A DNA stretch of 56,849 nt from a virus, in IMG/VR virus record IMGVR_UViG_3300025108_000058, positions 1 to 56,849 of that record. One strand, 5' to 3'. A program made the translations under genes and the position numbers. Within the stretch, counting starts at the first letter, position 1. The number at the start of each line of letters is the position of its first letter. Shown piece by piece: positions 4,934 to 56,787 of this stretch. The notes under the pieces are model-generated. The model saw only the letters and a list, made by a program, of their open reading frames with translations, had not been told where the DNA came from and made no database searches.

Positions 4934-5238
4934 AAATTATTCTTAAAAAAATCCTTAGGGTGTATTCCTCTGTCATCTATGAATATATCTGCGTCAAAAG
5001 GTTTAAAGTAAAGGTGGTGGTATTTACATCCCCAACTTTCGAGCTGAGCTTCAGTGATAGGTCTATAATAAGCTTCTCCTCTACCGCTTTTGTTTCCTCT
5101 AGCTGTATAGTATATTATAGTGTGACCTTCGTCATACATTTTATTAATCTTTGCTATTCTATCTTCGAAAGGTTTTCTGCCTATTACAGGTCCTTCTTCT
5201 TTGCAGATAGTGTCATCAATGTCTATTACGTACTTCAT
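4930..5238 (-). CDS. Small HAD-superfamily phosphatase
   Basis: Only 102 residues. It opens with VIDIDDTIC, the DxDxT nucleophile motif of HAD phosphatases, has YYTARG (motif II Thr) in the middle and ends with ADIFIDDRG, the motif IV acidic pair. No cap domain fits in this length, so it belongs with compact capless HAD enzymes often found in capsule and LPS clusters. It could dephosphorylate a sugar phosphate made in the pathway encoded by its neighbours. It overlaps the upstream cytidylyltransferase by 23 bases and the downstream oxygenase by an ATGA. Confidence 0.75.
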   Translation of the reverse strand: MKYVIDIDDTICKEEGPVIGRKPFEDRIAKINKMYDEGHTIIYYTARGNKSGRGEAYYRPITEAQLESWGCKYHHLYFKPFDADIFIDDRGIHPKDFFKNNL

Positions 5239-7603: not shown

Positions 7604-8382
7604 TTAGTGTACCAGTCTTGCCAGTATTTTGTCATTATTTCAAACTCATCAGGGACAAATAAGTCTAAGTCTTGCGGACAACCTTCTTTAAGTAGTATAC
7701 ATGGAGGTGCTGTACCGAAATACGGTGTAATACCATAATCACGAAAGTACTCATGCATTAGAGTACCTGGTCCCATTACGTGTATGTTCTTTTTATTGTA
7801 AATATTGTAGTCTTCAATTCCTTCTTGCCTGTAGAAATACAAATTAGAAAGTAAATCCATAGAAAAAGAATTACTGAGAAATAAAATATCATTAACGTTG
7901 TACATGTGATATTCTAAATCCATTACTCCACCGTGAGATGAATGAATAACATTATTCTCTAAATGAGGAACTTTGAAAGTCTTATTAGGGTGAAATAAAA
8001 TATCTGGTCTAGATTTCACTACTATGTCGTATATAAAATTATTTTCTATTTCGTAATCCCTCTTTAATTCTAAAGATTTGGCAAAACTGTAAAATAGTGA
8101 ACTCCAATGATCGTTTCCTCTAAAAAGATTTTGTTCTCTAGAATCTACAGACAGACCTTTTAGGTCGTATCTAACTTTAAAAGAATCTAATTCTTGTTGT
8201 GCTACTTGTCGTTGTTGATACTCTTGTGTAACTCCTGGTCTATCCCAACTGTAAGTCCACGTATGTGCAAAATAATCTACCTGTACGTGTTCTTTATTGG
8301 CTGTAGTCCAAAACCATTTCTGGTTTTCTACTCCCATTTCCCATTGTCTTAATTGACCGCTTAAGCATACAGCTATTCTCAT
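7600..8382 (-). CDS. Putative glycosyltransferase, SGQLR / SRPD family
   Basis: The product starts RIAVCLSGQLRQW, a strand-loop typical of a family common in phages and in capsule clusters. A DIVVKSRPDILF segment lies near the middle, and HVMGPGTLMHEYF near the C-terminus would fit an acceptor or metal region. Many Trp, Tyr and Phe residues suggest a sugar-binding groove. The 233-residue product at 623-1324 shares the two landmark motifs. I infer a GT-A-like transferase but see no classical DxD. It overlaps the 153-residue orphan upstream and the GT-B gene downstream, each by an ATGA. Confidence 0.6.
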   Translation of the reverse strand: MRIAVCLSGQLRQWEMGVENQKWFWTTANKEHVQVDYFAHTWTYSWDRPGVTQEYQQRQVAQQELDSFKVRYDLKGLSVDSREQNLFRGNDHWSSLFYSFAKSLELKRDYEIENNFIYDIVVKSRPDILFHPNKTFKVPHLENNVIHSSHGGVMDLEYHMYNVNDILFLSNSFSMDLLSNLYFYRQEGIEDYNIYNKKNIHVMGPGTLMHEYFRDYGITPYFGTAPPCILLKEGCPQDLDLFVPDEFEIMTKYWQDWYTK

Positions 8383-8840
8383 AATACTGGTTTTAAAAAC
8401 GTTTGATCAAAATCTTTCATCCTTACTAATCTAGCTCTATGATTGAGAAGATTGCCGTAGATAGTTGCATCTGCTCTATTTTGATATCCAATTATAGGAA
8501 GCATATAAGAATCACAAATAAAAAAATCAGAGTTAATTTTATTCTTAAGGTATTCTCCGTGGTGTTTTACATCGTCTACGTATACTTGTTTATGGTCGAA
8601 TTTAAATTTAGGTAGACGTTTAATGATGGAAGATAACGTAAATAAATCAATAGTATCTGAGGTTATTATTATATGTGCATTATATAGTTGATCAGATTTA
8701 AATTGAAACTTATTTATGTCATGTACTATAGTTTCTATGCTACCTTCGTACCTGTCTATATTACTAGGCACTTCGATGTCTAAAGGTTTTTTAGATATTA
8801 ATGTATACCTACCGTTTCTAATTGGAAGAGAATATTTCAT
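8379..8840 (-). CDS. Protein of unknown function in the glycan operon
   Basis: I do not recognise this 153-residue protein. It has no signal peptide, no membrane segment and no cysteine cluster. A central IIITSDTIDLFTLSSIIKRL segment looks like a Rossmann-type strand-helix, and FFICDSYMLPIIGY follows later. It could therefore be a small alpha/beta domain, perhaps a half of a transferase whose partner is a neighbour. Its first 23 coding bases overlap the end of the 708-residue SGNH/transferase gene, and its stop overlaps the next start by an ATGA. The firm translational coupling argues that it is real. Confidence 0.6.
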   Translation of the reverse strand: MKYSLPIRNGRYTLISKKPLDIEVPSNIDRYEGSIETIVHDINKFQFKSDQLYNAHIIITSDTIDLFTLSSIIKRLPKFKFDHKQVYVDDVKHHGEYLKNKINSDFFICDSYMLPIIGYQNRADATIYGNLLNHRARLVRMKDFDQTFLKPVL

Positions 8841-10944
8841 CGTTGTAAAGTACCTTATTAGTTAAATTATTATGTGTATCATAATTAAAAATAAAATTGG
8901 AATTGTGTTGAAGTACATCTTTCATATCAATATACATATCTAAAAACTGTTGCTTAGTTTTAGTAGATAATCTGTGAACTATCTTACAAACATATTCAAA
9001 TCTTAACCAGTCATCTTCAATATCATCATAACTTTCGTCCCACCATTTGCCAAAAGTTTTAAAACCTCTCTTACGAAGTTCTTCTAAATGTCCTTTCGGA
9101 CCAAATTGAATTACTGGATGACCACAGTACATGGGATTAAAAGTAGAGCTATGTAAATGACAAGCTTTATCCATTGGAAAAGCACAAAATACGACGCTTA
9201 TAAAAGTATTTCTATAGTGAATAGGTCTAAATGGTAAGTCAGCATTGAAGAACCCTTTACCTCCTCCTGGTTCTCCATGATTGTGTATATCTGATTCGTC
9301 TATATCGAAAGGTATCTTTTCTTTAAGAGATTCTATATTTTCATCCGTTACTAAAGAAGGAAATAGTTCTTTTACTTCATGACTATAAAATTCATTATTG
9401 TACTTTGGAAAACTAATTTTAAACTTGTGATATAAATTATGTTCATTTACATACAACATAAAAAGATTTCTTTCAGGTCTACCGGTTCTGTTTACTTTTA
9501 AAAAAGGAACAGTAGTATTTAAATTTTCAGTTTTATATTTTATCTCTTCTTCTATATCAACAAACTTTGGTAGATACGCATCTTTATATTCTAAACCTGT
9601 TTTAGGGTCTTTAAGTCTTTTAATATCAACAACATTATAAAGGTAAGATATAACGTTTATATGTTCTGTAAAATTACTATTATCAGTTTTAAAAGTATTG
9701 AAATCTCTTTCAGCAAATAAATTATTAGTAACGTATACTATATTTTTTCTATTGAGTCCTAATATATCTGTGTTCTTATAAAGTTCAGACAAGAATTGAA
9801 ATATAGGCTTACCTTCTAAACTATCATCTAATATTAGTTTACAGTCTCCAGTTCGCAACCCTTCTAATACTTTTTCTGGTAATTTATGTAAACACGATGC
9901 CACAAGTGGAGTATCGTGATGGATCATAGTGTGGTATGTAAAACGACCTTTGTCGTGTTTTGCTAAGTCTCCATTAGGTAATTTCATTAAGTTATCGATA
10001 TTGGTTTGAGAAAATATCGGTCTAACCATTACATGACCGTTTGCATCAATATCATTTATTTCAGGTACGTCTCTATAATGATATAGAATCTCTTCTGTAG
10101 GTTTATCTAATCTAGCTAAATTAATAGCATCATGTAGAGCTGGTAAATCTTTTTTAGTAAAGTATTGATAAAGGTATTCAGCCCATATATCATGACCTTG
10201 TTCATTTGGGTGCATGCCATCAAAACAGTGATTTTTACCAAACTTATCTAAATAACCTTTAAAACTTGTTAGACAAAAGTAATTTTCTACTATTTCCCTG
10301 TATACATCAATTAGGCTGTAAATATTAAGATGTTTAAGGTAGCTTCTAGACATTGAAGCTTCTAGTAAATCTATACTACTATGTAAATCAAATCCAAATT
10401 TGCCATCATTATCTTGGTAAAAAGCATTAAAAAAAGTATGGTCTATACCTTTATACTGTAAAAACTGATGTATAAGAAAGACTGATTGTAAATATCTTGA
10501 AATATACTCTTCTTTATTCCAGTATATAGACGAATAAACTTTTTTAAATAAACTTCTCTCTTCGGATAGTTCAGAAGAATCTAAAGGGTAAAGCACATCC
10601 CATCCATAATCATTATCTTTCTTATGGTAGAAGTCTTTTCTCTCTGGTGAAGTTAAACCTATTACTACTTTGATTTCTTGCGGTTCATAATTTTTAAGTA
10701 AGTTAAGAACGTTGTCTATTACCCTTCTTACAATACCGTCGTTAGATGATCCTGCAACAGCCGTATTCATCGACTTTACACCTAATTTAGTAGCTAATTT
10801 ATGAGGCCAAACTTTAGGTAATCTATAATTATCATTAATTTTTGCGTTAACATTACCAGCTAAGTCTTCTTTTATTCTTGGGTCAATAATATCTCCTGCA
10901 GTCCAGCTATCTCCTTCTGTTAATAGTATTTTTAACTTATCCAT
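8818..10944 (-). CDS. Two-domain protein: SGNH hydrolase plus exostosin/fucosyltransferase-like domain
   Basis: Residues 1-260 form an SGNH hydrolase: TEGDSWTAGD (Ser13) at the start, VWPHKLA, AVAGSSNDG (Gly/Asn blocks near 64-70) and DGMHPNEQGH (Asp242, His245), the catalytic Asp-x-x-His. Residues about 300-690 are a second domain. Its landmarks are FLKVNRTGRPERN, then TFNPMYCGHPVIQFGPKGH, then LRKRGFKTFGKWWDESYD. This last pattern (fixed start, return of a preferred position, 'GFktF...WDESYD') is seen in exostosin- and fucosyltransferase-like domains of phages and giant viruses. The fusion would couple deacylation or acylation with sugar transfer on one acceptor. It overlaps both neighbours by 13-23 bases. 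Confidence 0.65.
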   Translation of the reverse strand: MDKLKILLTEGDSWTAGDIIDPRIKEDLAGNVNAKINDNYRLPKVWPHKLATKLGVKSMNTAVAGSSNDGIVRRVIDNVLNLLKNYEPQEIKVVIGLTSPERKDFYHKKDNDYGWDVLYPLDSSELSEERSLFKKVYSSIYWNKEEYISRYLQSVFLIHQFLQYKGIDHTFFNAFYQDNDGKFGFDLHSSIDLLEASMSRSYLKHLNIYSLIDVYREIVENYFCLTSFKGYLDKFGKNHCFDGMHPNEQGHDIWAEYLYQYFTKKDLPALHDAINLARLDKPTEEILYHYRDVPEINDIDANGHVMVRPIFSQTNIDNLMKLPNGDLAKHDKGRFTYHTMIHHDTPLVASCLHKLPEKVLEGLRTGDCKLILDDSLEGKPIFQFLSELYKNTDILGLNRKNIVYVTNNLFAERDFNTFKTDNSNFTEHINVISYLYNVVDIKRLKDPKTGLEYKDAYLPKFVDIEEEIKYKTENLNTTVPFLKVNRTGRPERNLFMLYVNEHNLYHKFKISFPKYNNEFYSHEVKELFPSLVTDENIESLKEKIPFDIDESDIHNHGEPGGGKGFFNADLPFRPIHYRNTFISVVFCAFPMDKACHLHSSTFNPMYCGHPVIQFGPKGHLEELRKRGFKTFGKWWDESYDDIEDDWLRFEYVCKIVHRLSTKTKQQFLDMYIDMKDVLQHNSNFIFNYDTHNNLTNKVLYNDEIFSSN

Positions 10945-11723
10945 CTGTAGTCGTATTTTAACAAGTGCATACCGTTACCTGAGTAATCTCTAGCCTTAAG
11001 TGGGGTTGTTTCTTCAAAATTTGTTGATATATAGATTGCATCTCCCTTAGTATCAAAACCATTATCTTTAAACTGTTCATAATCGTTAAACGCTAATTTA
11101 ATATCATTTTCAGACATAGTAGCTTCTTGAATATGTAGTAAGCTGATGTCTCCTGTGTAAACACATTGGAATACTTGTGGTGTATCGCCATCTTCGTTTG
11201 GTAATCCAGTAGCAGTCCCGCACCACATAAGTGCTTTCGTATAATCAATCATACCGTTTACTGCACATGAATTAGCACCAATACCGGGTATATCAATAGT
11301 TACTTCATTATTATATTTTCTGATAATTACGTTGTAGGTACCGTCAAATTCAGGCTCTACCATTAAGGATGCTTTAGCTACTCTATCTTTAGATGAATCC
11401 GGATCTTCATCCCAGTTAGGATTTTCCCACCATTCATACTCTAAGTGGTGTTTTACTAAATTAGTCTCATCAATAAACGTAGTCAAAAATAATCCACAGT
11501 GTTTACCATTTTTACCAAAAATACACTGTTTAACGTACACAGTTGTATTGTAAAACGGATCTTCTTTACGATCTTCTAAAAGTTCATATATGTTATCAAG
11601 ATCTGGTTTAAATCTAATTAATGCTGTAAAGTCATTTACTAACATTTGATGTGTGTGATTCTGTCTTACTCCATGTCTATCGATGTCATGAAATAAATAA
11701 GTGTAGTCTTTATGTAACCTCAT
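10932..11723 (-). CDS. LamG/concanavalin-like lectin-type protein
   Basis: The 263-residue product is a single beta-rich unit. It has VYTGDISLLHIQEATMSENDIKLAF near residue 190-215, which is the 'position relative to profile, sits on curve' end of LamG-like domains. It also has DYSGNGMHLL at the end, a phrase typical of the linker after such domains. No catalytic motif is visible. Related beta-rich segments form the C-terminal halves of the two glycosyltransferases at 13177-14601 and 14598-16022, where the same SGN(G/N) phrase recurs. A carbohydrate-binding role on the phage or cell surface is inferred. It follows the radical SAM gene with a one-base stop/start overlap. Confidence 0.55.
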   Translation of the reverse strand: MRLHKDYTYLFHDIDRHGVRQNHTHQMLVNDFTALIRFKPDLDNIYELLEDRKEDPFYNTTVYVKQCIFGKNGKHCGLFLTTFIDETNLVKHHLEYEWWENPNWDEDPDSSKDRVAKASLMVEPEFDGTYNVIIRKYNNEVTIDIPGIGANSCAVNGMIDYTKALMWCGTATGLPNEDGDTPQVFQCVYTGDISLLHIQEATMSENDIKLAFNDYEQFKDNGFDTKGDAIYISTNFEETTPLKARDYSGNGMHLLKYDYRWIS

Positions 11724-13180
11724 TATATTGTTATTGCTTGTGTAAAATGATAAAATTCTTCTAGTTCAGGGAAAGTTTTACAGAAATCTGTACCTCTTCT
11801 TGCATCATGAGCTTTGAAATATCTTCCAAAATCTCTCTGTTGTCTCAATATAGCTTCAGGATCTTTAAATTTAGAGACCATCCAATCGTATGTTCTTTTA
11901 ATTTTCTGTACTTCGACATCAGAATAACCAATTAGTTTATGATCAAATTTTGGTATCCCAAGATAATCCATATATAGTACAGTGTCCCATAATATTGGTG
12001 CAAAATCTCCTTCTGGTAATACCTGTACTGTTTGATGTATAGGATGTCTGAGGTATGAGCTATCTAAGAATACAGCAGATACCCAGTATCTATCTGAGGA
12101 TCCGTATGTTTCTTTAAGCTTGTATATTCCGTCGACTAAAGGCTTGTAAGAAGTAACAGATAAAGCATTAAAGGTAGACATTACAGTAATGTTTACTCTA
12201 GGACATGCAGTAAGTATTTTATTCATATTTGCCCAGAATCTGTTAAATTCAAGACCGTTTCTGATATACTCTGCTCTTTCACCCCATGCATCTACGGAAG
12301 TAAAGATAATAAATTCATTAACTCTTCCTTCGTCTTCTATTCTTTTTATTTTTTCTATTAATTTATCAACTAAATTATCAGGTACTCCTAGATTAGAATT
12401 AATAGCTAAGTTTAGTTTCTTATTAGGGTTAGGTTGTTCTATAATATAATCTAATATCTTCCAAGTATCTTTTGATAGTAACGGTTCTCCTCCGGTAATT
12501 CTAAAGGTATGTAAGTCTCTATAGAGATCAGGCCACCATTTCCAAAATGCTTCTACATATGGATTGTGTTCTGTGTGATGTATAGGCATTTTGCCATTAG
12601 AAATCAATCCTTGAAGATCATTAAAGTTATCTTGAGTAGGGTAAGGACCGTGTTTTTTAGCCTCTTCAACCCACTTTGATGAAAACGATGGACCGCAGTA
12701 TGAACATTTAAAATTACATAGATTAGAAAACGATACCTCGACATATTTTGGGTTATAATCTTCTCTCCATCCTAAATTTTTAATTTCATTAAAGTATGGT
12801 TTAGACCAAGACTCATTAGATTTGAATACTCTATCAGAAAACTGAGGAGAATTATCTTCAACGTTCCAGCAGTAATCACATTCAGCAGGTCTTTTACCTT
12901 CTAGCATCTCTTTCCTCTTCATTTTCTTAAACTTGGTATTATGAAGTGCTGAAGGATTACGTTTTAGTTCATGTAATGGTATTTTATGAGTAGCAGGGTG
13001 ATGACAAGAGTGCGTTTGACCCATGTGTAGATGTATAGTAGTTTGAGTCCATTTAGCTAAACACATACCACATCCAACACCATCTAATTTTTCCTTTGTA
13101 GTGGCATAATCGTGGTTACCGAGTAGAATTTTTCTATGCTCTTTTTCTTTTGCTAAAGCATCATTTTGTTCACTTATCAT
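11723..13180 (-). CDS. Twitch/SPASM-type radical SAM protein
   Basis: Residues 155-162 read CNFKCSYC, the CX3CX2C site for the SAM-cleaving 4Fe-4S cluster, and RITGGEPLL follows about 70 residues later as the SAM-binding GGE motif. Five Cys in the N-terminal part (37, 40, 59, 101, 104, the last two in CDYCW) look like ligands for an auxiliary cluster placed before the barrel, as in phage 'twitch' radical SAM proteins. The 485 residues are complete. It shares ATGA and TAATG junctions with its neighbours. A modification of a peptide or sugar is likely; the substrate is unknown. It is not closely related to the partial radical SAM gene at the left edge. Confidence 0.85.
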   Translation of the reverse strand: MISEQNDALAKEKEHRKILLGNHDYATTKEKLDGVGCGMCLAKWTQTTIHLHMGQTHSCHHPATHKIPLHELKRNPSALHNTKFKKMKRKEMLEGKRPAECDYCWNVEDNSPQFSDRVFKSNESWSKPYFNEIKNLGWREDYNPKYVEVSFSNLCNFKCSYCGPSFSSKWVEEAKKHGPYPTQDNFNDLQGLISNGKMPIHHTEHNPYVEAFWKWWPDLYRDLHTFRITGGEPLLSKDTWKILDYIIEQPNPNKKLNLAINSNLGVPDNLVDKLIEKIKRIEDEGRVNEFIIFTSVDAWGERAEYIRNGLEFNRFWANMNKILTACPRVNITVMSTFNALSVTSYKPLVDGIYKLKETYGSSDRYWVSAVFLDSSYLRHPIHQTVQVLPEGDFAPILWDTVLYMDYLGIPKFDHKLIGYSDVEVQKIKRTYDWMVSKFKDPEAILRQQRDFGRYFKAHDARRGTDFCKTFPELEEFYHFTQAITI

Positions 13181-14601
13181 AATTTTATATTTATCATTTT
13201 AGCCCAGGGCGTGAATTTTTCTTCTCCTACAATTTCAAACTGCAGTTGTTTTATACCGTCTCCTTTATAGTTAATTTTTCCTTGTTGCATTTGTGTAACG
13301 TATCTTTTTTCATTTCTTGCTGTAGTTTCTCCTTTTGCCCATTTGCCGTTTACTAGTCCTTCATCTTTATGAGGTAAACATCTAAATCTACCGCTAATTC
13401 TATGAGGTATAATAGAGTTTGGTACGATAATGTCTTCTTGTAGCATTTCTACATCAGTAGCTTCATAACCTGTTTTAGGTTCATTAAAGTCTAAATCTAA
13501 CACCCTATTGCCTACCGGTATTGAAAGATTCAAAGTATTAACTTCCTCTGGTTTTAAACATCTATTCCAAGCAAACACTTTAGCAATATCCCCCTTAAAA
13601 AAACCATGTATCTTATCAGGAAACGATGGGGAGTGTCCCAGATAAATATCTTGTAATCCATAACTTTTAAGATTACTGTCCCATTTTAAAGGTGAAGGGC
13701 TTCCGTAACCTGCTTTTGAGTCTACTTCTGTACCGTTGAGATATAAATGAGATAATTTTTCATACTTATCAAACGTAGCTGTTACCCAGCTCCATTGATC
13801 AGCATATCTTTTGATCCACATATAGTGGTGTTTATTAAAATTGTTCCAGTAAGTTAAAGAAATAGCTCTAGAATTATTAAAACTAATACCGTAATCGTAT
13901 CCGGGTATTCTAAAAATAGGATGTTCTATGTACTTAATTTCAGCATCACCAATCAAAAATATACCGGTCTTATGTTTTTGGTGTTGATTTCTAACCAACA
14001 TAGATATAGAATGGTCGCCTGAGGTTAATCCTCTTAGTTTACGAGTAAAAGGTATTTTTATTTTTGATGAATCTCCGTTAAATCTAGCAAATTTTTGTTG
14101 TTCTGGTTTGTCTATATCTAAATAAGTAACGTTTGTGAGTCCTTCTAAGTGACATCTCCAGAATAAATCATCATCTTCCATACCCCAATCCCAATAGTCG
14201 TTTGAATAACCATTAGTAGCCTCTAAATGTTCTTTGGAAAATACTACTGCTCCACCAAAGTACTCATGATATTTCAACCCATAGTCCATTTGAGATATAT
14301 TAGTAGCGATATGTCTTGGAAATTCTCCTGGATGGCTATAATCAGCCCCTCCGTTTTGTTCAGGAATCATATCTATGTCATGAAAACAAACATAATCACA
14401 GCCGTCTTCTATTGCAATTTTAGCTCCAATATTCTTTGTAGCACCTCTGTTAAATAGTTTATCGTCAACTTGATGAATAAAGTACATTTGAAAATCAATC
14501 CCTTTTGACTTAAGGTACTTACCTGTCCTAGGAATAAACTCATGCATATGTATTTCTCTATCTCTGTATGGAATACATACTCCTAATTTATGTTTTGTCA
14601 T
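13177..14601 (-). CDS. GT7-like galactosyltransferase fused to a LamG-like domain (copy 1)
   Basis: Residues 1-160 are a GT-A enzyme of the beta-4-galactosyltransferase type: PYRDRE (11-16), FNRGATKNIG (50-59), FHDIDMIP with the metal-binding DxD (73-80), then YFGGAVVF and WDWGMEDDDLFWR (137-149). Residues about 170-474 are beta-rich with FNGDSSKIKI at the start and HLYLNGTEV and DIYLGHSPSF inside, as in LamG/concanavalin domains that bind sugars. The neighbouring gene upstream has the same length and architecture, so the pair arose by duplication. It begins inside the stop of that gene (ATGA). The fused lectin may hold the acceptor glycan or anchor the enzyme to the virion. Confidence 0.8.
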   Translation of the reverse strand: MTKHKLGVCIPYRDREIHMHEFIPRTGKYLKSKGIDFQMYFIHQVDDKLFNRGATKNIGAKIAIEDGCDYVCFHDIDMIPEQNGGADYSHPGEFPRHIATNISQMDYGLKYHEYFGGAVVFSKEHLEATNGYSNDYWDWGMEDDDLFWRCHLEGLTNVTYLDIDKPEQQKFARFNGDSSKIKIPFTRKLRGLTSGDHSISMLVRNQHQKHKTGIFLIGDAEIKYIEHPIFRIPGYDYGISFNNSRAISLTYWNNFNKHHYMWIKRYADQWSWVTATFDKYEKLSHLYLNGTEVDSKAGYGSPSPLKWDSNLKSYGLQDIYLGHSPSFPDKIHGFFKGDIAKVFAWNRCLKPEEVNTLNLSIPVGNRVLDLDFNEPKTGYEATDVEMLQEDIIVPNSIIPHRISGRFRCLPHKDEGLVNGKWAKGETTARNEKRYVTQMQQGKINYKGDGIKQLQFEIVGEEKFTPWAKMINIKL

Positions 14602-16022
14602 ATAGCTACTATTAAATGAGTGACATTACCGGTCTTAGTACTAGAATGTATATCAAACTCTAAATTACTTATTCCGTCTATACTAGGATTATGCCAGTTA
14701 TTTTTAACTTCATTATTAAATCTTAACTGGTTGTAACGTGTGTTAAGATCTTGCCAGGAATTATTACTAAATCCTGCATCTTCGTGATCTAGTAATTTAT
14801 ATCTACCTAATCGTCTAAAAGGTTTCGGTATTACCGTACTGCTTTCTAAATCAGTAGGAACCATTTCACAGTTCTTTATAACACCATCATTATTATTACC
14901 TGATAGATCCATTAGTTTGTATCCTTTGATAAACTTACCGTCGTAATAAGTCATTAATTTACCTGCACTTAAGTAATCGCCAAAATTTTGAGTTAGCCCG
15001 AAATATCTATTTTTACTTATTTCTACTATTTCTTTTGTGTCTAATTTATTTTTAAATATAGCTAGACTGTCTACCTTACCTTTATAGAATTTATTCTGTT
15101 CTTCTCTATTAGGATCAGAAACTCCTAGATACATAAACCTAGATTTTGAATAGTCAAGTATCTGAGTGTCTAAATTAACTTTACCAATCGATTCACCATT
15201 AATAAACCCTTCAATAACTTTATCTACACTATTATAAGAAACTACTGCAGTAACTTTCTTCATAGAATCTTCATCGGAATAGACCTGAATGTATTTTTTA
15301 CGTTTATTAAATAGTTCAACTTTATATCTGTTAAAACTATTCCATCCGATATTGAAATCATATCCAGGTATACCAAAAGCTGTGAAAAAATCATCTCTAG
15401 CATTTAAATCAAAATCAGTATGCTCAGGATGAAAACTAACAAAAATAGTAAAGTCCTTAGAAAAATTAATTGTATTTTTTATTTCAACATATGAATCTCT
15501 ACCGTTAAACTTTAAAGCTGCTGTTTTAGGTCCTGAGTTCTTAAGAAGAGTAGTGTCACAGGGTAGGTTATAATGTAAACATCTCCAAAGTAAATCATCA
15601 TCTTCAAATCCCCAACCCCAGTAGTTATTACTGTACCCGTTAATTTTTTCAAATAACTCTACTGGAAATAAAGTTACTCCACCAAAGTATTGGTCGAATA
15701 TAGGTTTATTTGTGTTATCTGATGAGACTAAAGTAGTAGCCATATGAATAGGTACGTTACTGTAGCTGTAATCTGCTTTAGATGGGAGCATATCTACATC
15801 GTGAAAACAAACATAATCACATTTTAGTTTCTTAGCTTCTAAAAAACCTATGTTAAGTAGTTTACCCCTATTAAAAAGCTTAGCGTCATCTTGCTCTACT
15901 ACAATTACTTTAAAATCGATTTCAGTTTTTCTTAAATACTCTTTTATCGATTGTTTAAATTCATAAAGTTGTGCGTATCTATTTCTATAAGGAACTACAA
16001 TACCAAGTTTATGCTTGGTCAT
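14598..16022 (-). CDS. GT7-like galactosyltransferase fused to a LamG-like domain (copy 2)
   Basis: Same length (474) and plan as copy 1: PYRNRY (11-16), FNRGKLLNIG (50-59), FHDVDMLP (73-80), YFGGVTLF and WGWGFEDDDLLWR (135-147). A LamG-like C-terminal half follows, with LKFNGRDSYVEI at its start, MYLGVSDPN inside and LMDLSGNNNDGV near the end. The catalytic parts are clearly related, while the LamG parts have diverged much more, so the two probably act on different acceptors. The N-terminus MTKHKLG is nearly identical in both, suggesting recent duplication of the 5' end or selection on it. It overlaps the small gene upstream by 14 bases. Confidence 0.8.
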   Translation of the reverse strand: MTKHKLGIVVPYRNRYAQLYEFKQSIKEYLRKTEIDFKVIVVEQDDAKLFNRGKLLNIGFLEAKKLKCDYVCFHDVDMLPSKADYSYSNVPIHMATTLVSSDNTNKPIFDQYFGGVTLFPVELFEKINGYSNNYWGWGFEDDDLLWRCLHYNLPCDTTLLKNSGPKTAALKFNGRDSYVEIKNTINFSKDFTIFVSFHPEHTDFDLNARDDFFTAFGIPGYDFNIGWNSFNRYKVELFNKRKKYIQVYSDEDSMKKVTAVVSYNSVDKVIEGFINGESIGKVNLDTQILDYSKSRFMYLGVSDPNREEQNKFYKGKVDSLAIFKNKLDTKEIVEISKNRYFGLTQNFGDYLSAGKLMTYYDGKFIKGYKLMDLSGNNNDGVIKNCEMVPTDLESSTVIPKPFRRLGRYKLLDHEDAGFSNNSWQDLNTRYNQLRFNNEVKNNWHNPSIDGISNLEFDIHSSTKTGNVTHLIVAI

Positions 16023-16215
16023 TTGATGAGCCTTTTGCTATAGTCATGAATTCGTGTAAGTAGAACTGTGCTCTTTCATCCCATTGTGAAAAATCTTTCT
16101 CTTCGAACCATAATGCTAATGCATCAGTAGATGCTGCAATTTTCTCTAATGCTTTTACTTTTCTTTCTTCTAGTAATAATGCTTCTTTTTCTTGATCGGT
16201 TAATTTACCTGCCAT
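16009..16215 (-). CDS. Small acidic helical protein
   Basis: A 68-residue protein, rich in Glu, Lys and Ala, predicted by eye to be mostly helical (heptad-like LLLEERKVKALEKIAASTDALAL). No known family is recognised. It sits between two glycosyltransferase genes with a 14-base overlap downstream and a five-base gap upstream, which supports it as a real gene. It could be an assembly or regulatory partner of the transferases; this is speculation from position only. Confidence 0.6.
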   Translation of the reverse strand: MAGKLTDQEKEALLLEERKVKALEKIAASTDALALWFEEKDFSQWDERAQFYLHEFMTIAKGSSNDQA

Positions 16216-16220
16216 TTTTA

Positions 16221-17060
16221 TTAAATTTTAACTATTAAACTTCTTAACTTATCCCAGTACGGGTAATCATTATAATCAATATACGAAAAGTTTTTCAACT
16301 TTTCAACTAAATATTCCTTATTTTTTATGTCTATTTTCCAATCAGATCTTGCTATAGATCTGTACATTTTATTATATTCTTTATGAAAACTATAGTGAGT
16401 TTTTGTTTCTGCTACTTCTAATAGTCGTTGAAGAACAGAAGAGTCCCACTTAAAATGGTGGACTTGAGTAAAACAATCTTCTATAGGCATTCTATCAGGA
16501 TGTCTTTCACCCCAGCTAGTAGCGTAGTTAGCAAATCTTACGTAATGCTGTCCTGGTGTTACATCTACATATCCTTTCATTAACGTAACCTTGTTAGGGC
16601 AAGCTCCAGACATTGGATACCTAAAGAATCCTGCGTAGGGAAAAGTTTCATGCACATTAGTATCTGGTTTAACTTCTGGAAATGTTCCTTGAGGTCCTAT
16701 TCTGTCTAGAAATCCTCCAGTTACAAATTTATAGTCTTTTGTCTCACACTCTTCGACTATATCTCTTACGTCTCTAGGGTATACTTGTAGTTCATCATCG
16801 TCAGATACAATCCACCATTCATCGGCTTTAGTGCGTTTAAGTTTATTGTATAGTTCTGTTACTTTGTGCCAGTCATATTTAGGTTCAGTAACTACCCTGA
16901 AGGGTGTAATACCTAATTCTTCTATTTCTTCTACTATATTATCATCTTCAGATTGCCGATATACTACTACATACATATTATCAACCATATTTCTATAGTG
17001 ATTTAACATATGAGGTAACATATGTGTATTTCTTCCGACTACTGTAGCTAAGTTAAGCAC
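16221..17060 (-). CDS. GT2-like glycosyltransferase (GT-A fold)
   Basis: The N-terminus LNLATVVGRNTHMLPHMLNHYRNMVD is the start of a GT2-type Rossmann domain (acceptor-side helix after the first strand). WWIVSDDDELQVYP (about 97-110) carries the acidic DxD-like triad that binds metal and nucleotide-sugar phosphate. HHFKWDSSVLQRL in the C-terminal part resembles the HxxKW box seen in related GT2/GT92 enzymes. The protein lacks membrane segments, so it is likely soluble. It overlaps the upstream methyltransferase by 8 bases. Confidence 0.75.
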   Translation of the reverse strand: MLNLATVVGRNTHMLPHMLNHYRNMVDNMYVVVYRQSEDDNIVEEIEELGITPFRVVTEPKYDWHKVTELYNKLKRTKADEWWIVSDDDELQVYPRDVRDIVEECETKDYKFVTGGFLDRIGPQGTFPEVKPDTNVHETFPYAGFFRYPMSGACPNKVTLMKGYVDVTPGQHYVRFANYATSWGERHPDRMPIEDCFTQVHHFKWDSSVLQRLLEVAETKTHYSFHKEYNKMYRSIARSDWKIDIKNKEYLVEKLKNFSYIDYNDYPYWDKLRSLIVKI

Positions 17061-17814
17061 GCTGTACTATTGTTAATCCTGTTGATTGAGGTTTTGATGG
17101 GTGTATACCTGTATTAAAAAAATCAAATGTCTTCCATTCAGGTCCTAATTCTTTTATAAATTTTGGTGGACCGTCAAAAAATTCATAATACTCTTTTTCA
17201 TCTTCTGTGATAATCATTTCTTTTTGGTACCTTTCATCAGTATCGTGAATAGCGATCATACCTTTTGGATTTAACAGTTGAGAGTATAGTTCAAAATCTT
17301 TTTTTACGTCTTCGTAAGAATGTCCTGCATCAATATAAAGAAAGTCGAATTTAATATCCTTCTTTACAAAATAATTGTAATATGCGTTTTCTGTAGTTTC
17401 TTTTATGAATTTAGGAATAAACTGGTATCTAAAGAAAGAATGAGGTTCTTCATAGTCTACTTTGCCTCCTACTCCGTTACATGCATCAACTAAATAAGTA
17501 ATTCCTATATCTCCATAATTAATATCGCTATCTCCATCAAATATTTCTGTGTCATGTAAATCTAATCTAGCTTGAGTCATTATTCTCGGTATAAATCCTC
17601 CTCCTGATCCTAAACAGCATAGTGTTTTATATCTCATAGCAACTATAATAGAGTGAACTAAATGACCATCTCCTAAATGGTAGTTAGTAGCACCGTGAGT
17701 CCATCTATAGGGTACTTGTCTAAACTCTTTTACCGGTTTACCGTTTATGTCTTTTGACATAACTGGATTGTTAGTAAGAAATTGTCTAATGTATTCTTTG
17801 TTGTAAATTTTCAT
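17053..17814 (-). CDS. Class I methyltransferase (Methyltransf_24-like)
   Basis: A CCLGSGGGFIPRIM glycine loop follows the first core strand, and FDFLYIDAGHSYEDVKKDFE gives the post-motif II region with the metal-binding Asp/His seen in sugar and glycopeptide O-methyltransferases. LNPKGMIAIHDTD follows as the core strand 5 with its HD pair. The pattern 'YIDAGHSYE-V--D' is distinctive. It probably methylates a sugar hydroxyl using SAM and a divalent metal. It starts two bases downstream of the preceding glycosyltransferase stop and overlaps the next transferase by 8 bases. Confidence 0.75.
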   Translation of the reverse strand: MKIYNKEYIRQFLTNNPVMSKDINGKPVKEFRQVPYRWTHGATNYHLGDGHLVHSIIVAMRYKTLCCLGSGGGFIPRIMTQARLDLHDTEIFDGDSDINYGDIGITYLVDACNGVGGKVDYEEPHSFFRYQFIPKFIKETTENAYYNYFVKKDIKFDFLYIDAGHSYEDVKKDFELYSQLLNPKGMIAIHDTDERYQKEMIITEDEKEYYEFFDGPPKFIKELGPEWKTFDFFNTGIHPSKPQSTGLTIVQRA

Positions 17815-17815
17815 A

Positions 17816-18670
17816 TTAACGTTTTTCTATATGTGCTAAGTTAAGATCAGTGAAATTAATGCATCTTGTCAAATGTTGTACTTCTCTATCGTAATTCTGG
17901 TCTGCTTTATCTGCTAATATCCATCTTTTTAATGGTCCGTAATGTTTAACGTATACTTCAGATTCATATATAGGCCATATACCTCTGTCATGATGTTCAC
18001 CCCATTCCCATGCATCGCAGTCCCAGTATGTAGCTACTAAAGACTTAAACTCTACTGCTCTCATATCAAACATATGTCTAAGAAATAGTTGTTCTGCAAA
18101 AATTAAATATTGAGAGTTAGGAACATCCATTGCAGTAAATTCTTCCATCAATTTAATACTCCCTGCAGCATAATCTTGAATAAACTTTGGATCAGGTAAT
18201 TGTAAAAAACTAACATTAACTGATTCAGTTTGCCATCTAGGGGTATATGAAAGTTTTCTGACATAATCATCAACATAACCTGGATAGTATCCTTTACCGT
18301 TTTCGATATTATGAACATAAAACTTATTAGGATCTAAATAAGTCTTTATAGGAGAGAATATATGTAAATCATTATCTACCATAATACACGGTTCAGTTTG
18401 TAAAGAAAGTACTTCGAGTTTTGCTGCTGCCCAAAAGATTTTTCTGTTTATATTATAGGTAGGTTTATAAAGTATTACTTCATCCCAAAAATGTAGTGTA
18501 TTAGTTAGTTTAAGCGTTTCTCTCGATAGTTCATCGCAATATAATATACATGTATCGTCCGGGTAGAATTTCTTCCATTGTCTAATAGATGCTATAAGTA
18601 TGAGTGTGTAAAGTTTACTGTAGAAACTAGCTTCACCTTTGACATTATCTAAAACCCAAATTACTCTCAA
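17816..18670 (-). CDS. GT-A fold glycosyltransferase-like protein
   Basis: The protein starts MRVIWVLDN, continues with KLYTLILIASIRQWKKFYPDDTCILYCD (GT8/GT32-like first strands and helix) and has EPCIMVDNDLHIF near residue 115, a clean DxD-like metal site. FAEQLFLRHMF and YVKHYGPLKRW in the second half resemble the segment that closes over the sugar donor. It is the first gene of the glycan operon: the next gene upstream, 48 bases away, belongs to the fibre block. No recognisable promoter octamer precedes it, though an A/T-rich stretch fills the gap. Confidence 0.65.
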   Translation of the reverse strand: MRVIWVLDNVKGEASFYSKLYTLILIASIRQWKKFYPDDTCILYCDELSRETLKLTNTLHFWDEVILYKPTYNINRKIFWAAAKLEVLSLQTEPCIMVDNDLHIFSPIKTYLDPNKFYVHNIENGKGYYPGYVDDYVRKLSYTPRWQTESVNVSFLQLPDPKFIQDYAAGSIKLMEEFTAMDVPNSQYLIFAEQLFLRHMFDMRAVEFKSLVATYWDCDAWEWGEHHDRGIWPIYESEVYVKHYGPLKRWILADKADQNYDREVQHLTRCINFTDLNLAHIEKR

Positions 18671-47655: not shown

Positions 47656-50600
47656 TTACTTCTTTTTCTTTTTATATCCTTTGTGCCAATGTTCATTAGA
47701 TGTTTTAATCTCTAACTCACTAACTGGTATATCTTCTACTGTTTTGCCGCTTTCAAATAAAACGTCATAATGAGTAACTACATGTTTCTCTCCTTCTTTA
47801 ACTAGAGTATGTTTCTCTGGTATACAATTACCTTTTCCATACTTCTCATGTACTACTTTAGCAGCACAATCGTGAGCAAATCCAGGTCCAGATTCTTTTA
47901 CTTCTTGATCTGCCTCAGTATCTGGTGCTTTTGCAACGTAGTTAAGTAGTTTTAGTACTCTCTTTATATTTCCATTAGCTGTAAAATCAGTAGGTTCTTT
48001 ATCGTTTATTTGATTAAAAAGAGATAGAAGTGCAGTAGCCATTGATTGTGCATTCTTTACATTAGCATTATAACCACGTAAGATAGTATCTGGTATTGGT
48101 CTTGCTTCTGCTTCATCTATATCATCATCATCATAGCCTGGAATATCGTATATACCCATACCGTCTAATTCTGAATTGGAAAATTCAGCACTTAGTCTCT
48201 TTCTAAATTCTGGTACACTAGTAATCCATCCGTGTAGTGCTTCTACTGCACCTGGATTATCTTCTATAAATTCTTCGAATCCACCACTATATCCTATAGC
48301 TCCAAATAAAGTTTCTAACTCCCTAGAGCTTTCTTTGATTGTATCTTCTTCTTTTACTATTTTACTTCCTTTAATTCTACTATGTGCTATACCGTATACA
48401 TCTCCGTTTCCGAAATCTACTGTAGCTTGAGTATCTGATATTTTAGTTACCTTTCCTTTTTTACCGTCTTTAGTAAGTGTATCTCCAACTTTTACTTCAG
48501 ATACTACTTCTTGCATATAGTCTTCTAGATTTTTATCTACTGGTAATTGAAATTTATCTGCTAAAGCTAATACTATTTCTGCTGCTGCGTCTCTCTCTGA
48601 TATATCATCATTGTTAGACATATTTTGTACAGCTTTTAATACATCATCGAAATCTCCTCTTCCTTCATCTAATTCTTGATCTCTACCTGTTCCTGCTATT
48701 TTATCATCTTGTTTAGCTAATAGCTCTTTATATTTAGCGTTTATTTGTTTTACTTTTTTGATAAACTTTATTCTCTTAGGATCATCTTGAGGTAATTTAT
48801 TCATAGAAGGAGCTAAATCCTTAATGAATTTTCTACCTTGAATAATCTTATCCATCTCAGAATTTTCTTTTATACCTTCTAATTGTAAGCCATCTATTTG
48901 GTCATACCTTACTTCATGCTCTTCTCCATCTTGATCTACACCAAATACAGTATCGTCATTCCACATATTAGCATTATCGTCGTTACCATTTTTAGGATTA
49001 TAGATAATTAAATACTTATCATCAAAAGTTCTAATCATAGCATCGTCTGATTGTCCTAGGTAAGCTAATAATTTTTGTTTTGTATACTCTTCATTTACAT
49101 TTGTACCTCCATGTCTAGCCATTGCTGCTTTAAAGTCTCCTTTATATAGCTGCTTTACTATTTTACGTCCTAACATTTCTAATTCGTCAGCATCAAGAGA
49201 GTGTGGTCTATCAAATCCATCTAAATAATTTTGAGCCATTACTCCGTAGTCAGCAGGATCTATAACGTCTTCTATACCTTCATTATAGTCATAGTCGTCA
49301 TTATTAGCATTTTTTATCATATCAGCTATCTTTGCAAGAGTAGCTTTATCCTTATCTGACAGTCTATGACCTAAGTGAGTAGGTTTTCCTCTGTCGTCAA
49401 ATTTTTGTTCGATATCTTGTTCGTTTATTTCTTGCATCTGTTTAAAATATTTTGTCATCTCGTTTTTAACGAGCTCTGTATTTATAAAAGGTTCACCTGA
49501 AGGTTTAACTCCTACATCTGATAAAACGATGTCTTTATCGTTTGCCAAGAATATTAGTTTGTTTCCATCTATTTGAAATCTGTATGATACCTCTGAGTCA
49601 TTCTTATATATAATATGTACTGTAAATGCTTCTGGTACGCTAGGAGATAGTGCTGAGGAGAATACTTTTTTAATTCTAGCTTTAGATACTTCGTCTCCTG
49701 AAGCATGTACTGCTTGTACGATTGCTTTTCCGGCTTTACTAGCTATGATAGAAAGATGCTCTTTACTTAAGTTTACGTTGTCTTGTTCTTTTAACTTATT
49801 ACCAGCTTTAACTGCATCTTTATGTGCTTTAGAATTACCATGAGAAGCTTTTTTCCCTGCTTTTCTCTTAGCATTTATATTAGCCCAAAGTCCTTCTTTA
49901 TTTATCTTCTGACCAGCTTTAACTGCATCTTTATGTGCTTTAGAATTTTTATGAGCAGGTTTTTCACCTCTAGCTCTTTTAGCTCTGATATTAGCCCATA
50001 GCCCTGGTCTTTTCTTTTCTCCTATATAGTCTTTTTCAGCTTCTCTATCTGCTTGATAATCTGTTTCTTCTTGATCTCCAGCATTCATAAGTAAGTTACC
50101 TAACTCTTTATCTTGTTCCATTTTAGGATTAATAAGAGTAATAGCATTTGGATGTGTGTCTCCTCTACCAATATGTAGTTCGTAGTCTTGTCCTTCTTTA
50201 TATTTATATTTAAGGTAGTCAATTAAATACTGAGTAGCATCCAAATCGTACCCTAAAGCAAAGACATCGTCTTGACCTTCATTAAAAGTATCATCATAGC
50301 TTTTAGGTTTTGTTCCTTTAGCTTTTGCTATTGCAGCATCTATCTTATTAAGCATATCTCCATACTTATCTGCTATTGGACCTCCTTCTGGTTCAGCTTC
50401 CTGCTCCATATCTCTCATTACCTGGTCTCTTTTGATTTGAAGTTTGGATAATATTGCTGAGTTTTTAGGAGATGCTGTTTTGTTATCTTTCTTTTTAGCC
50501 ATCCTAGATTGTAATGCTCTTAATTTCATAAGAACAGGATCGTTAATATCTTTAGTTTCGTCTAAATCGTGGCTTTTATCTACAACAGAAATACCATTAG

Positions 50601-53997: not shown

Positions 53998-55209
53998 TTA
54001 TTGATTTTTTATTTTATCTTCCCAATTGCGGAAAGTAATATTACCTAATGTATAGGCTTCTTTTTCTATCTCTACTAATTCTTCATCTTCATTGGTATTT
54101 GTAGTCCCGTAGTTTTTTAATCTACCTTCTACGTTTTGAATATGGTGAACCATTTCATGAGTAAAAGATCTGAGTACATCTTTAGGGTGTCTGCCTTCGG
54201 TATATAATACTACTTCTTTTAATTCAGGGTTATAATAAGCTGTTCTACCAAATACACTAGAAGCTTCTGCTATGTCTTTTTTTATTTTAATCTCCGGTAA
54301 AGGAGTAATGTTTAGTTTTTGATCTAACATATACTCTAATATAGACCCCATAAAAGGTGTGAAATCGAAATCAGATTTAGCAAACTCATTAGATATACTC
54401 ACTCTAATATGATCTTGCATAAATTTAACTGCTATATTGTCACTACCTATTTGATTTTTTATTCTCTTATATAAGGTAATTAAGTGAGCTCTGTCTTTTG
54501 ACTTCATAGCTGATCTAGGAGCTATGTGTGTACCAGATGTACCTTCAACAACAGACTCTTTTTCAGAAACAAATATCTCAGTTAATACATCTTCTAACTT
54601 TTGTTTCATTTGTTCTGATACTATACTTCCTTTTAACATATTTAATATTTTTAACATTTCGTCGCTAGATAAACTTTTAGGAAAAAAGTCTCTTACCTGG
54701 TCTAAATTACCGCTAAGTATAGCTTTTCTAAAGTTTGTTGCTCTAACATTATTACTATCGTTTGAAGTAACTGATAATCCTTTTACGTTTGGTGTTTTCT
54801 TAAAAGCAGAAATTCTTCCTAAATCTCTAAGATCATCTTTTTCTCTAATACCTGCTACAGCATAAAATTCTTCATCATTATGTAGTGCTGCATAGTCTCT
54901 AGCTAAAGTCATTGGATTACCTTCCTCGGTAACTATTTCTATATTAGTTAGATATTTTTTGTAAATATTCCATATAGCAGCTGATTGCTCTTTATTGATT
55001 CCGTTTCTTTCGTTTCCTCCTATAAAGATGACTACCTTATCAACCTTTTCTATCTTATCAAATCTTTTGTCTAATACATTATCTCCAGCTTGTTTATAGT
55101 TATCTAACCCGTAAAGTTTGCCTTTAATAGACCCGTCTAATAACCTTTGGGCTATTTCGAAATGTCCTCTGTGAGGGGGTTTAAAAGCTCCTGGGTATAG
55201 TGCTATCAT
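53998..55209 (-). CDS. Nucleotidyltransferase fused to a HExxH metallopeptidase-like domain
   Basis: Residues 1-165 form a nucleotidyltransferase of the HxGH class: YPGAFKPPHRGHFEIA (11-16), a FYAVAGIREKDD loop and SVTSNDSNNVRATNFRKA (the S-x-T-x-R box near 146-161). After a helical linker (LEDVLTE, IFVSEKESVVE) comes a second domain with DIAE-ASSVFGRTAYYNPELKEVVLY and RSFTHEMVHHIQNVEGR. HEMVH (351-355) is a zinc-protease site, with acidic EELVEIEKEAY as a possible third ligand. The IAE-A site at 315 could let the prohead protease separate the two. It starts by an ATGA overlap. Confidence 0.7.
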   Translation of the reverse strand: MIALYPGAFKPPHRGHFEIAQRLLDGSIKGKLYGLDNYKQAGDNVLDKRFDKIEKVDKVVIFIGGNERNGINKEQSAAIWNIYKKYLTNIEIVTEEGNPMTLARDYAALHNDEEFYAVAGIREKDDLRDLGRISAFKKTPNVKGLSVTSNDSNNVRATNFRKAILSGNLDQVRDFFPKSLSSDEMLKILNMLKGSIVSEQMKQKLEDVLTEIFVSEKESVVEGTSGTHIAPRSAMKSKDRAHLITLYKRIKNQIGSDNIAVKFMQDHIRVSISNEFAKSDFDFTPFMGSILEYMLDQKLNITPLPEIKIKKDIAEASSVFGRTAYYNPELKEVVLYTEGRHPKDVLRSFTHEMVHHIQNVEGRLKNYGTTNTNEDEELVEIEKEAYTLGNITFRNWEDKIKNQ

Positions 55210-56132
55210 GCTAAGAATGATTGTAAGTTAGAATCTATTTCTCTAGGAGTGTTACTAACAAGTTTAGAGTTAAAAACAGGGCTAAATAACATTTCAGCTA
55301 TATTCTCTAAAACTTCTTCTTCTCTCTTAACTGCTTTTTCTTTACTAGTTCTATAACTTTTAAGTTTAGCAGTCATCTTATCATCTCCGGGTCCTACTCC
55401 ATTTTTTTGATACCAATCTTGAAAATATTTTTTTAACGTTCTATCTTCACTATAATTATCTCTATCATAATCCATATGAGACGTTGCATTAACAAACTCC
55501 TGATTTTCTTCAGCAGATAGTTTAATTGGGTTTCTGAATGATGAACCGTCTATCTTATTTTCTTCAGAATATCTTTGTAAATAGTCTTTGATACCCTGTG
55601 CTCCATTTTTAGCAGCTGTATCAAATCCTTTAATTTCTTTCTCAAATCCTGGTCTTGCATTTACAAATAAAGAAAAATTACCTTTAGTCATCTTAGAATA
55701 ATCTTGTATTAATTGATAAACATTTCTCCAAGTAGAAAACACAGCTGAACCAGGTACATTTCTTTCTCTTTTAAAGTTAGAAATATATGCAATCATAGGG
55801 TGAGTGTACACCATTACCATGTATACGTTAAATCCACTCGAAATAAGATCTTTTATCTTTTTGGGGTTACTAGCAGTTGTATCCCAAACAAAAGATTTCT
55901 TATTATCTACGAGAGACTGAGCTTCTTGGTCCGCTGCTCGAGTTGCTGGACCTAGCTTGTTGTATGCTGGATGGTCTGGATTCTCCACGAACTTGTCTGG
56001 ATTGACTAGGGGAAGAGATTTGAGGTCTAATTGCTGGAGTAGATGTGTTTTCCCTGCTCCAGACCCCCCTGCCATTACTATTACCTTCGGGCCTGCCGTA
56101 GCTTCTAGGATTAGATCTGATAGTTTTATCAT
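55206..56132 (-). CDS. P-loop kinase, zeta-toxin-like, with capsid-type leader
   Basis: The leader MIKLSDLILE is ten residues and is followed by ATAGPKVIVMAGGSGAGKTH, the Walker A of a P-loop kinase (22-30). WDTTASNPKKI then VYMVMVYTHP come next, where zeta-toxin kinases keep their substrate loop and second strand. The remaining residues are helical and charged. Zeta kinases phosphorylate UDP-GlcNAc, but that activity cannot be shown here; related phage kinases can target other molecules. The first 230 coding bases overlap, in another frame, the end of the lipoprotein gene. It is linked to the next gene by an ATGA. Confidence 0.7.
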   Translation of the reverse strand: MIKLSDLILEATAGPKVIVMAGGSGAGKTHLLQQLDLKSLPLVNPDKFVENPDHPAYNKLGPATRAADQEAQSLVDNKKSFVWDTTASNPKKIKDLISSGFNVYMVMVYTHPMIAYISNFKRERNVPGSAVFSTWRNVYQLIQDYSKMTKGNFSLFVNARPGFEKEIKGFDTAAKNGAQGIKDYLQRYSEENKIDGSSFRNPIKLSAEENQEFVNATSHMDYDRDNYSEDRTLKKYFQDWYQKNGVGPGDDKMTAKLKSYRTSKEKAVKREEEVLENIAEMLFSPVFNSKLVSNTPREIDSNLQSFLA

Positions 56133-56787
56133 TGTTAAACTTATTTGGATTATTATATTCTCTTATTATTATATTTTTATTTCCGCCTTTAAGTATGTTT
56201 ACAGACTCTCTAAGTTTATATTCTCTTACTTCTGGTCTATTATATACCCTTACGTTACTATTATTATTAGCGATAGCTCTAGTTCTAACTCTATTTTTTA
56301 TCTCTCTATCTTTAATGTCTTTTTGAGTACTCTGTCTGTAATTATTCATATGAGCCATAGAAGGTCTATTCCATAAGTGAAAATTACTATAGTATGGATC
56401 GTAACTATTCCATCCCCATTGTCTAAATCTATATGGATCCCAATGATTGAATGTACCAAAATTAAAATTAAAGTTCCAGTCAAACCAGAAGTCATATCTG
56501 TTTACATATAAGTCCCATGGAGTAACATTTCTATTATACTTCCATAAAAAGTTTCTATTGTAAAAAGAATAATACCAACGTAAGTCTTGCTGTTTAGCAA
56601 ATTGAGAATAATTCCATCTAAACTTACTATCTCTACTAAACTTTCTGTATAGTGATGATTCACTGTCGATCACATCTACTAAGATACCTTCCTGGGTAAC
56701 TATAGGAGAATGATTAAGCGTGGCTACTTTAAAGTTAGCACAGCTAGTTACTAAAAATAATGCAAGTATAAATGTTATCTTTTTCAT
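55903..56787 (-). CDS. Lipoprotein with W/Y/N-rich and R/S-rich regions
   Basis: MKKITFILALFLVTSC is a type II signal peptide with Cys16 as the lipidated residue; the TSC ending suits Bacteroidota. Residues 45-140 are rich in Trp, Tyr, Phe, Arg and Asn (FRWNYSQFAKQQDLRWYYSF, WDLYVNRYDFWFDWNFNF), and the last 120 are Arg/Ser/Asn-rich and likely disordered. The last 77 codons, including the stop, lie over the start of the kinase gene in a different frame. A promoter octamer precedes the gene by 13 bases. It may change the host surface, exclude other phages or act in lysis; no family is recognised. Confidence 0.65.
   Translation of the reverse strand: MKKITFILALFLVTSCANFKVATLNHSPIVTQEGILVDVIDSESSLYRKFSRDSKFRWNYSQFAKQQDLRWYYSFYNRNFLWKYNRNVTPWDLYVNRYDFWFDWNFNFNFGTFNHWDPYRFRQWGWNSYDPYYSNFHLWNRPSMAHMNNYRQSTQKDIKDREIKNRVRTRAIANNNSNVRVYNRPEVREYKLRESVNILKGGNKNIIIREYNNPNKFNNDKTIRSNPRSYGRPEGNSNGRGVWSRENTSTPAIRPQISSPSQSRQVRGESRPSSIQQARSSNSSSGPRSSVSRR

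Follow-up and report, generated by a model that had tools for sequence, protein, structure and literature searches.

Lambda Rz1 is an outer-membrane phage lipoprotein read from DNA that also encodes Rz. Rz1-like o-spanins overlap or adjoin an i-spanin with a transmembrane domain, and Rz1 pairs with the i-spanin as its functional partner. The locus described here likewise encodes a phage lipoprotein from shared DNA; however, the partner frame encodes a soluble P-loop kinase that lies beside DNA-metabolism genes. A further parallel is suggested by genes A and C of phiX174, described as carrying de novo overlapping extensions (PMC8227390); as here, an older frame is overlapped by the extension of a neighbor in another frame, and both are kept. 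Whereas phiX174 is a small ssDNA phage, the phages considered here are large, T4-like, and dsDNA, and it is composition rather than fold that is selected in their extension, equivalents of which also exist in private DNA. In virus genomes, the median +1 overlap is given as 14 nt (interquartile range, 8 to 26), and overlaps of DNA viruses as a median of 15.6 nt (PMC8903798), while Prodigal admits a same-strand overlap of at most 60 bp (PMC2848648). It is easy to dismiss long overlaps on one strand of a large dsDNA phage as annotation artefacts. The present case, shared by uncultured marine phages that form a large group, is among the rare clear ones of double coding in viruses with large genomes; literature searches (listings and the starts of abstracts) recovered no earlier description of this lipoprotein/kinase pair.

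The window, i.e., the whole stretch of DNA analyzed, comprises 56,849 nt (positions 1 to 56,849 of IMG/VR virus record IMGVR_UViG_3300025108_000058). Its relevant features are as follows.

55903..56787, minus strand: lipoprotein gene, 294 aa, with a signal peptide and lipobox, an aromatic/Asn-rich body, and a basic low-complexity tail
56740..56742, minus strand: lipobox cysteine codon (lipoprotein residue 16), with Cys16 invariant in the 44-member alignment A4
55206..56132, minus strand: P-loop kinase gene, 308 aa, zeta-toxin/polynucleotide-kinase-like by Pfam PF06414, AlphaFold2, and Foldseek
55903..56132, minus strand: out-of-frame overlap of 230 nt, encoding lipoprotein residues 219-294 plus stop and kinase residues 1-76
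56046..56069, minus strand: Walker A motif GGSGAGKT, kinase residues 22-29, inside the overlap
55903..55905, minus strand: lipoprotein stop codon, inside the kinase gene
56133..56162, minus strand: A-rich kinase initiation region with no Shine-Dalgarno motif, inside the lipoprotein gene
53998..55209, minus strand: NMN-adenylyltransferase-like next gene, whose start overlaps the kinase stop by 4 nt

A sequence-only reading of this DNA had proposed that the end of the lipoprotein, from residue 219 on, and the start of the kinase, including its Walker A motif, are encoded by the same 230 bases in two frames. This is borne out: the ORFs 56787..55903 and 56132..55206 are both on the minus strand, the kinase starts 655 nt into the lipoprotein gene at an offset of +1, residue 219 is the first shared residue, and GGSGAGKT falls within the overlap. 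The next longest same-strand overlap among the window's ATG-started main genes in the ORF list is 41 nt (47656-47696). Relative to the kinase, the tail occupies the +2 frame, in which the residues are basic and Cys is lost. Each lipoprotein codon starts on a kinase wobble base and ends on the second base of a kinase codon, so that substitutions silent in the kinase almost always change the lipoprotein. The same reading had noted that the overlap is richer in G+C than its flanks, and this holds (GC of 0.50 in 55900-56099 versus 0.26-0.33 in most windows of the region), with the correction that it is chiefly kinase wobble positions that account for the rise, having lost T in favor of C and G; the frequency of T there is 0.107 inside the overlap and 0.392 outside it in 51 overlapping representatives.

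Viral contigs of IMG/VR were scanned with the kinase (three scans, best 80 loci of each) and the lipoprotein (two scans). The matches listed contain 274 loci, counting the window once, and the kinase is present in 261 of these; two loci were dropped as the kinase start was cut off, and the other 259 represent 130 distinct kinase sequences. Among these sampled loci, the lipoprotein frame is open for 203-254 nt into the kinase in 122 of the 130 distinct kinases and not in the remaining 8. The comparison of related phages that had been suggested thus finds both frames kept down to about 54% kinase identity. A tblastn search of 50,697 phage records with the window kinase and lipoprotein returned no match, and hence no isolate with the pair; a search of the phage records with the lipoprotein of locus L198 likewise returned none. 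Several of the 122 show individual peculiarities. L117 starts with GTG, and some of the lipoproteins run off the contig end. In L221 (2856-3236), the lipoprotein has only 126 aa, mostly encoded inside the kinase gene, and the kinase has a different, longer N-terminus. In L044 (2569-3001), the tail frame is intact over the kinase and the upstream lipoprotein is broken, with a stop in the tail frame 34 nt before the kinase start and the N-terminal part ending in another frame; the break is either an assembly error or recent decay.

Fifty-one of 54 representatives have the overlap, and across it their lipoprotein frame has no stops. Beyond the overlap, the same frame of these 51 kinases has a stop density of 11-19 per 100 codons, and the third frame contains 7-14 stops in the first 230 nt. 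When their kinase peptides were recoded with synonymous codons as used in the rest of the kinase, the tail frame acquired a mean of 9.6 stops (range, 7.7-11.4), and 1 of 102,000 recodings was open. Over 231 nt, the corresponding frame of distant kinases from isolates has 11 stops in Pelagibacter phage HTVC008M and 6 in a Methylophilales phage. The two frames are thus open over the same DNA beyond chance. We propose, with a probability of roughly 0.88, that this is a true dual-coding, overprinted overlap in which the kinase frame is ancestral and the lipoprotein tail was extended over it and is held mainly for its composition.

Because openness is part of how the overlap is defined here, the informative tests are those unrelated to stops. 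Accordingly, silent kinase positions were scored by the residue that they specify in the lipoprotein frame in 80 overlapping representatives with <90% identity, a set that leaves out L221 and incomplete kinases; as the sequences are related, the following counts are not independent events. Where the wobble base decides between Cys and Arg, T is found at 2 of 183 positions inside the overlap and at 802 of 959 outside it, with lesser reductions in Phe/Leu (21/63 inside, 872/1334 outside) and Ser/Pro contexts (452/1039 and 734/992). Conversely, Trp and Tyr are not avoided: T stands at 53 of 61 Trp/Arg positions inside versus 281 of 456 outside and at 43 of 45 Tyr/His positions versus 1082 of 1266. 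The base G is used more often inside the overlap where it converts Arg to Gly (362/1165 versus 142/2088 outside), Ser to Gly (160/721 versus 101/1177), or Lys to Glu (115/213 versus 259/1785), but not where it converts Asn to Asp (37/415 versus 151/769) or Thr to Ala (33/416 versus 117/836). An earlier set of 72 sequences gave the same pattern, with Cys at 0 of 156 positions. In the eight kinases without the overlap, T occupies 25 of 39 Cys/Arg positions inside the equivalent stretch and 69 of 82 outside. Cys occurs in the first 200 nt of the lipoprotein frame in none of 118 overlapping and all 8 nonoverlapping kinases, a contrast on which 6 of 6 tree-independent pairs agree (sign test, 0.031); over the whole tail, 1 of the 118 (L259) has Cys, two of them. 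Further, at kinase codon 50, where neither a stop nor Cys is at stake, the tail frame encodes Gly in 70 of 80 sequences, with 16.4 expected.

Such residue-specific wobble use, with Cys purged and Gly and Pro favored, indicates that the tail is selected as a protein. Selection at the protein level is hence seen in both frames, as the P-loop residues of the kinase are invariant. It might be argued that the open frame is a chance by-product of the kinase amino acid sequence and that the extra residues do nothing, given that the Gly codons of the P-loop give Arg, Ser, and Gly and that Ser and Arg, taken by themselves, are already expected at high frequency under the null. However, the same peptide with normal codons carries the 9.6 stops noted above, T at stop-making contexts falls from 2756/3270 outside to 0/800 inside, and the Cys, Phe, and Gly biases, which are unrelated to openness, are missing from the eight nonoverlapping kinases; we therefore consider a chance origin very improbable, despite its agreement with the negative doubly synonymous test described below.

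Equally improbable, in our view, is that the constraint on the 5' part of the kinase gene acts on the nucleic acid, through RNA structure, a binding site, or GC- or C-rich codons, rather than on a second protein. Such a constraint would also predict the GC rise and a reduced synonymous divergence in the overlap, and 4-fold-degenerate kinase sites do differ less often inside (216/1181) than outside (630/2255) in 37 independent pairs, the sign being opposite in the closest pairs (93-98.5% identity; 68/595 inside, 86/1115 outside). Yet T is avoided before GY, where Cys results, and not before GG (Trp) or AY (Tyr), while G is favored where Gly results and not where Asp or Ala does; a base choice that depends on the residue in the other frame cannot easily have a nucleotide-level cause. 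Moreover, kinases lacking a lipoprotein are AT-rich in this stretch (GC of about 0.36 in L060 and L066).

The synonymous-site analysis that had been called for therefore yields a divided answer, as the residue-specific wobble use is not matched by any excess at doubly synonymous sites: A/C differences in the independent pairs amount to 9 of 219 lipoprotein-synonymous and 24 of 490 nonsynonymous sites. Nor, after correction for the tree, did wobble T differ significantly in contexts where no stop is at stake (2-3 of 6 pairs). The absence of a doubly synonymous excess implies that the identity of tail residues is not tightly held. We accordingly rejected residue-by-residue conservation of the tail, and the lengths of in-frame indels were not used as evidence since length is fixed modulo 3 by construction. 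In the dual-coding reading, then, selection maintains the composition of the tail first and its sequence only in part.

The kinase is predicted to belong with the zeta toxins and polynucleotide kinases, whose activities are those of UDP-N-acetylglucosamine and polynucleotide kinases, respectively. It shares with them the P-loop and the Pfam domain Zeta_toxin PF06414 (2.8e-10, residues 13-126; 40.4 bits against a gathering cutoff of 22.3), and its AlphaFold2 model (mean pLDDT, 85.6) retrieves 3q8x, 4gp6, and 1gvn as top Foldseek matches (E value, 4e-6). The structural match is partial and confined to the core, with TM scores of 0.39-0.44 to zeta and 0.38-0.63 to polynucleotide kinases. Gly22, Gly27, and Lys28 are invariant in the kinase alignment A3. 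In contrast to zeta toxins, the window kinase has a long helical C-terminus, and no toxin-antitoxin arrangement was recognized among its neighbors. A PDB sequence search with the A3 profile gave no match, and 0 of 83 candidates from bacterial and archaeal genome contigs scanned with the kinase alignment were confirmed.

The sequence-only reading had further held that the kinase is the older of the two and that the lipoprotein tail was extended over it. This polarity is supported, as the part of the kinase within the overlap carries the P-loop of a family found far outside these phages and as kinases without any lipoprotein exist (L060, L066, and L270). The reverse order, with the lipoprotein tail older and the kinase N-terminus written over it, would accommodate the equivalent tails of lipoproteins that lack a kinase; nevertheless, it is exceedingly unlikely, because the overlap encodes a P-loop needed for kinase function and common to those distant families and because the private tails are of a different, AT-rich and Asn-rich sequence. 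These private tails come from 12 nonoverlapping lipoproteins, 5 beside a kinase and 7 whose retrieved flanks contain no kinase match (e.g., L186, L188, and L198). In all 12, the last 70 residues carry a charge of +8 to +16 and no Cys, and they consist to 80-87% of S/R/G/N/Q/P/T/K, from DNA with a GC of 0.26-0.36. The overlapping tails (n = 118) have a mean charge of +11.8 and 82% of the same residues, with Gln, Pro, and Gly replacing Asn, as against an average of 54% in lipoprotein bodies. The kinase-free lipoproteins of L186 and L188 lie downstream of a phosphatase/adenylyltransferase module.

The eight nonoverlapping kinases are scattered in a tree of the kinase minus its overlapping part, and at least seven changes of overlap state are needed on this unrooted quick tree. 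In L060, L066, and L270, no lipoprotein is present between the nuclease and the kinase; L062, identical in sequence to L060, is likewise without one. The kinase 5' end of L060/L062 and L066 is AT-rich (GC, 0.34-0.36), and L062 and L066 have nine stops in the tail frame. L030, L178, L183, L184, and L271 have a lipoprotein that carries a tail of its own and terminates shortly ahead of the kinase start or no more than a few bases from it. Relatives with a lipoprotein stop ahead of the kinase had been named as the observation that would reduce the overlap to a chance extension; such lipoproteins do exist in these five loci, but as a scattered minority. That reading is not upheld, given the residue-specific selection in the overlap and the recognizable, decayed tail frame retained by L030 (five stops; kinase 5' GC, 0.44). 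Together, relatives without the overlap, a decayed but readable tail, and equivalent private tails constitute natural controls, by which the gain, holding, and loss of a second reading frame become directly testable; the scoring of wobble bases by the residue in the other frame is simple and applicable to any phage gene family.

Some of the differences between neighbors may owe in part to recombination. Between L201 and L163, both overlapping, the conserved codons 1-78 differ silently at 9% versus 21-30% elsewhere. Between L201 and the nonoverlapping L178, silent differences reach 56% in codons 1-78, versus 34% and 12% further on, with residues 92% identical in codons 1-78. Gradual decay as the sole cause of the latter difference was rejected, since recombination near the kinase start may have contributed.

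Whether the kinase starts at the upstream ATG bears on the extent of the overlap. No Shine-Dalgarno signal was found in the genes of the window, and SD-like motifs occur in 4 of 51 genes versus 4.2 expected. Upstream of the kinase start in 122 sequences, A has a frequency of 0.78 at -12 and 0.82 at -13, and a purine occupies -3 in 0.94, while A at -6 is not enriched (0.34). In Flavobacterium johnsoniae, A at -3, -6, -12, and -13 is reported to act positively on initiation (PMC6847099); the bases at -3, -12, and -13 of the kinase region are in line with such a Bacteroidota-type start. One could alternatively suppose that the kinase starts at Met20 or is otherwise expressed, which would shorten the overlap, or that the overlap serves mainly to tie kinase translation to that of the lipoprotein or to limit it, the tail being a passenger. 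In favor, all of 46 kinase sequences have Met20, and a ribosome translating the lipoprotein has to pass over the start of the kinase. Against these proposals, kinase residues 3-10 are conserved, residues 4-13 and 16-21 are modeled as helix and strand, the context of the upstream ATG at -3, -12, and -13 agrees with Bacteroidota initiation, and a passenger would be neither purged of Cys nor matched by private tails. We therefore regard them as improbable, if less so than the other alternatives, with translational coupling possible as an added effect.

Taking these findings together, we infer from the sequence that both products are translated. Under the dual-coding reading, ribosomes translating the lipoprotein would continue for 227 coding nt into the kinase gene and terminate there, while the kinase would be started separately at an internal ATG in an A-rich, Shine-Dalgarno-free region of the Bacteroidota kind. 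The tail would be a disordered, cationic, Cys-poor, Ser/Arg/Gln/Gly/Pro-rich segment needed on a membrane-anchored lipoprotein and hence conserved chiefly in composition, with residue preferences at some positions. As to why the P-loop should host it, the genetic code and the position-preference analysis suggest that the Gly-rich P-loop codons, read one base earlier, would give Arg, Ser, and Gly almost by themselves once wobble T is avoided, making the P-loop an easy place for such a tail. The tail may thus have come to lie over the P-loop and then left it on several occasions. More generally, we tentatively suggest, at slightly less than even odds, that a composition-selected segment can switch in either direction between private DNA and an overlap with an unrelated essential motif, that P-loop genes are general landing sites for Arg/Ser/Gly-rich tails, and that many such overlaps are hidden because gene finders forbid them.

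The lipoproteins mostly have 190-340 aa, and a loose lipobox is present in 116 of 116 scanned overlapping members (75 of 116 by a stricter pattern). Residues 199-294 of the window lipoprotein are predicted to be disordered (pLDDT, <50), within a poor whole model of mean pLDDT 43. Given its positive charge, its predicted disorder, and the lipid anchor, the tail may bind an envelope polyanion, such as LPS, peptidoglycan, or DNA. Pfam recovered nothing meaningful in 44 lipoproteins, and 3 of the 44 weakly match PHROG 1119 (superinfection exclusion, Cor-like; best E value, 0.01); on this weak hint, a part in superinfection exclusion is conceivable though rather unlikely. Two of the 44 also weakly match Rz-like PHROGs (best, 9e-4), probably due to the signal peptide. 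An identity as an o-spanin was rejected in view of these weak matches and the overlap partner, which is a P-loop kinase and not an i-spanin with a transmembrane domain.

The nearest cultured relative found by the portal protein is Flavobacterium phage vB_FspM_immuto from the Baltic Sea, a T4-like marine phage whose protein is 72% identical to the portal-like protein of the window. It shares the order primase, exonuclease, and adenylyltransferase with the window but differs in having an unrelated hypothetical protein where the lipoprotein/kinase pair sits, with neither gene there. The 53998-55209 protein shares 41% identity, along its entire length, with a portion of the immuto protein that carries the annotation NMN adenylyltransferase. 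Its C-terminal HEMVH motif, with a weak match to Pfam DUF6782 (0.16), is presumably a metallopeptidase-like HExxH, and the protein seems to join a nucleotidyltransferase to a metallopeptidase-like domain; the L188 homolog is fused also to a phosphatase-like protein. The protein at 2328-2789 of L198, which adjoins a relative of the lipoprotein, resembles what we take to be a gliding-motility-associated C-terminal domain, which points to a Bacteroidota host. Elsewhere in the window (3-18670, minus strand), the ORF list reads as glycosyl- or nucleotidyltransferase-, radical-SAM-, and methyltransferase-like genes beside tail-fiber-like genes, which perhaps serve surface sugar modification.
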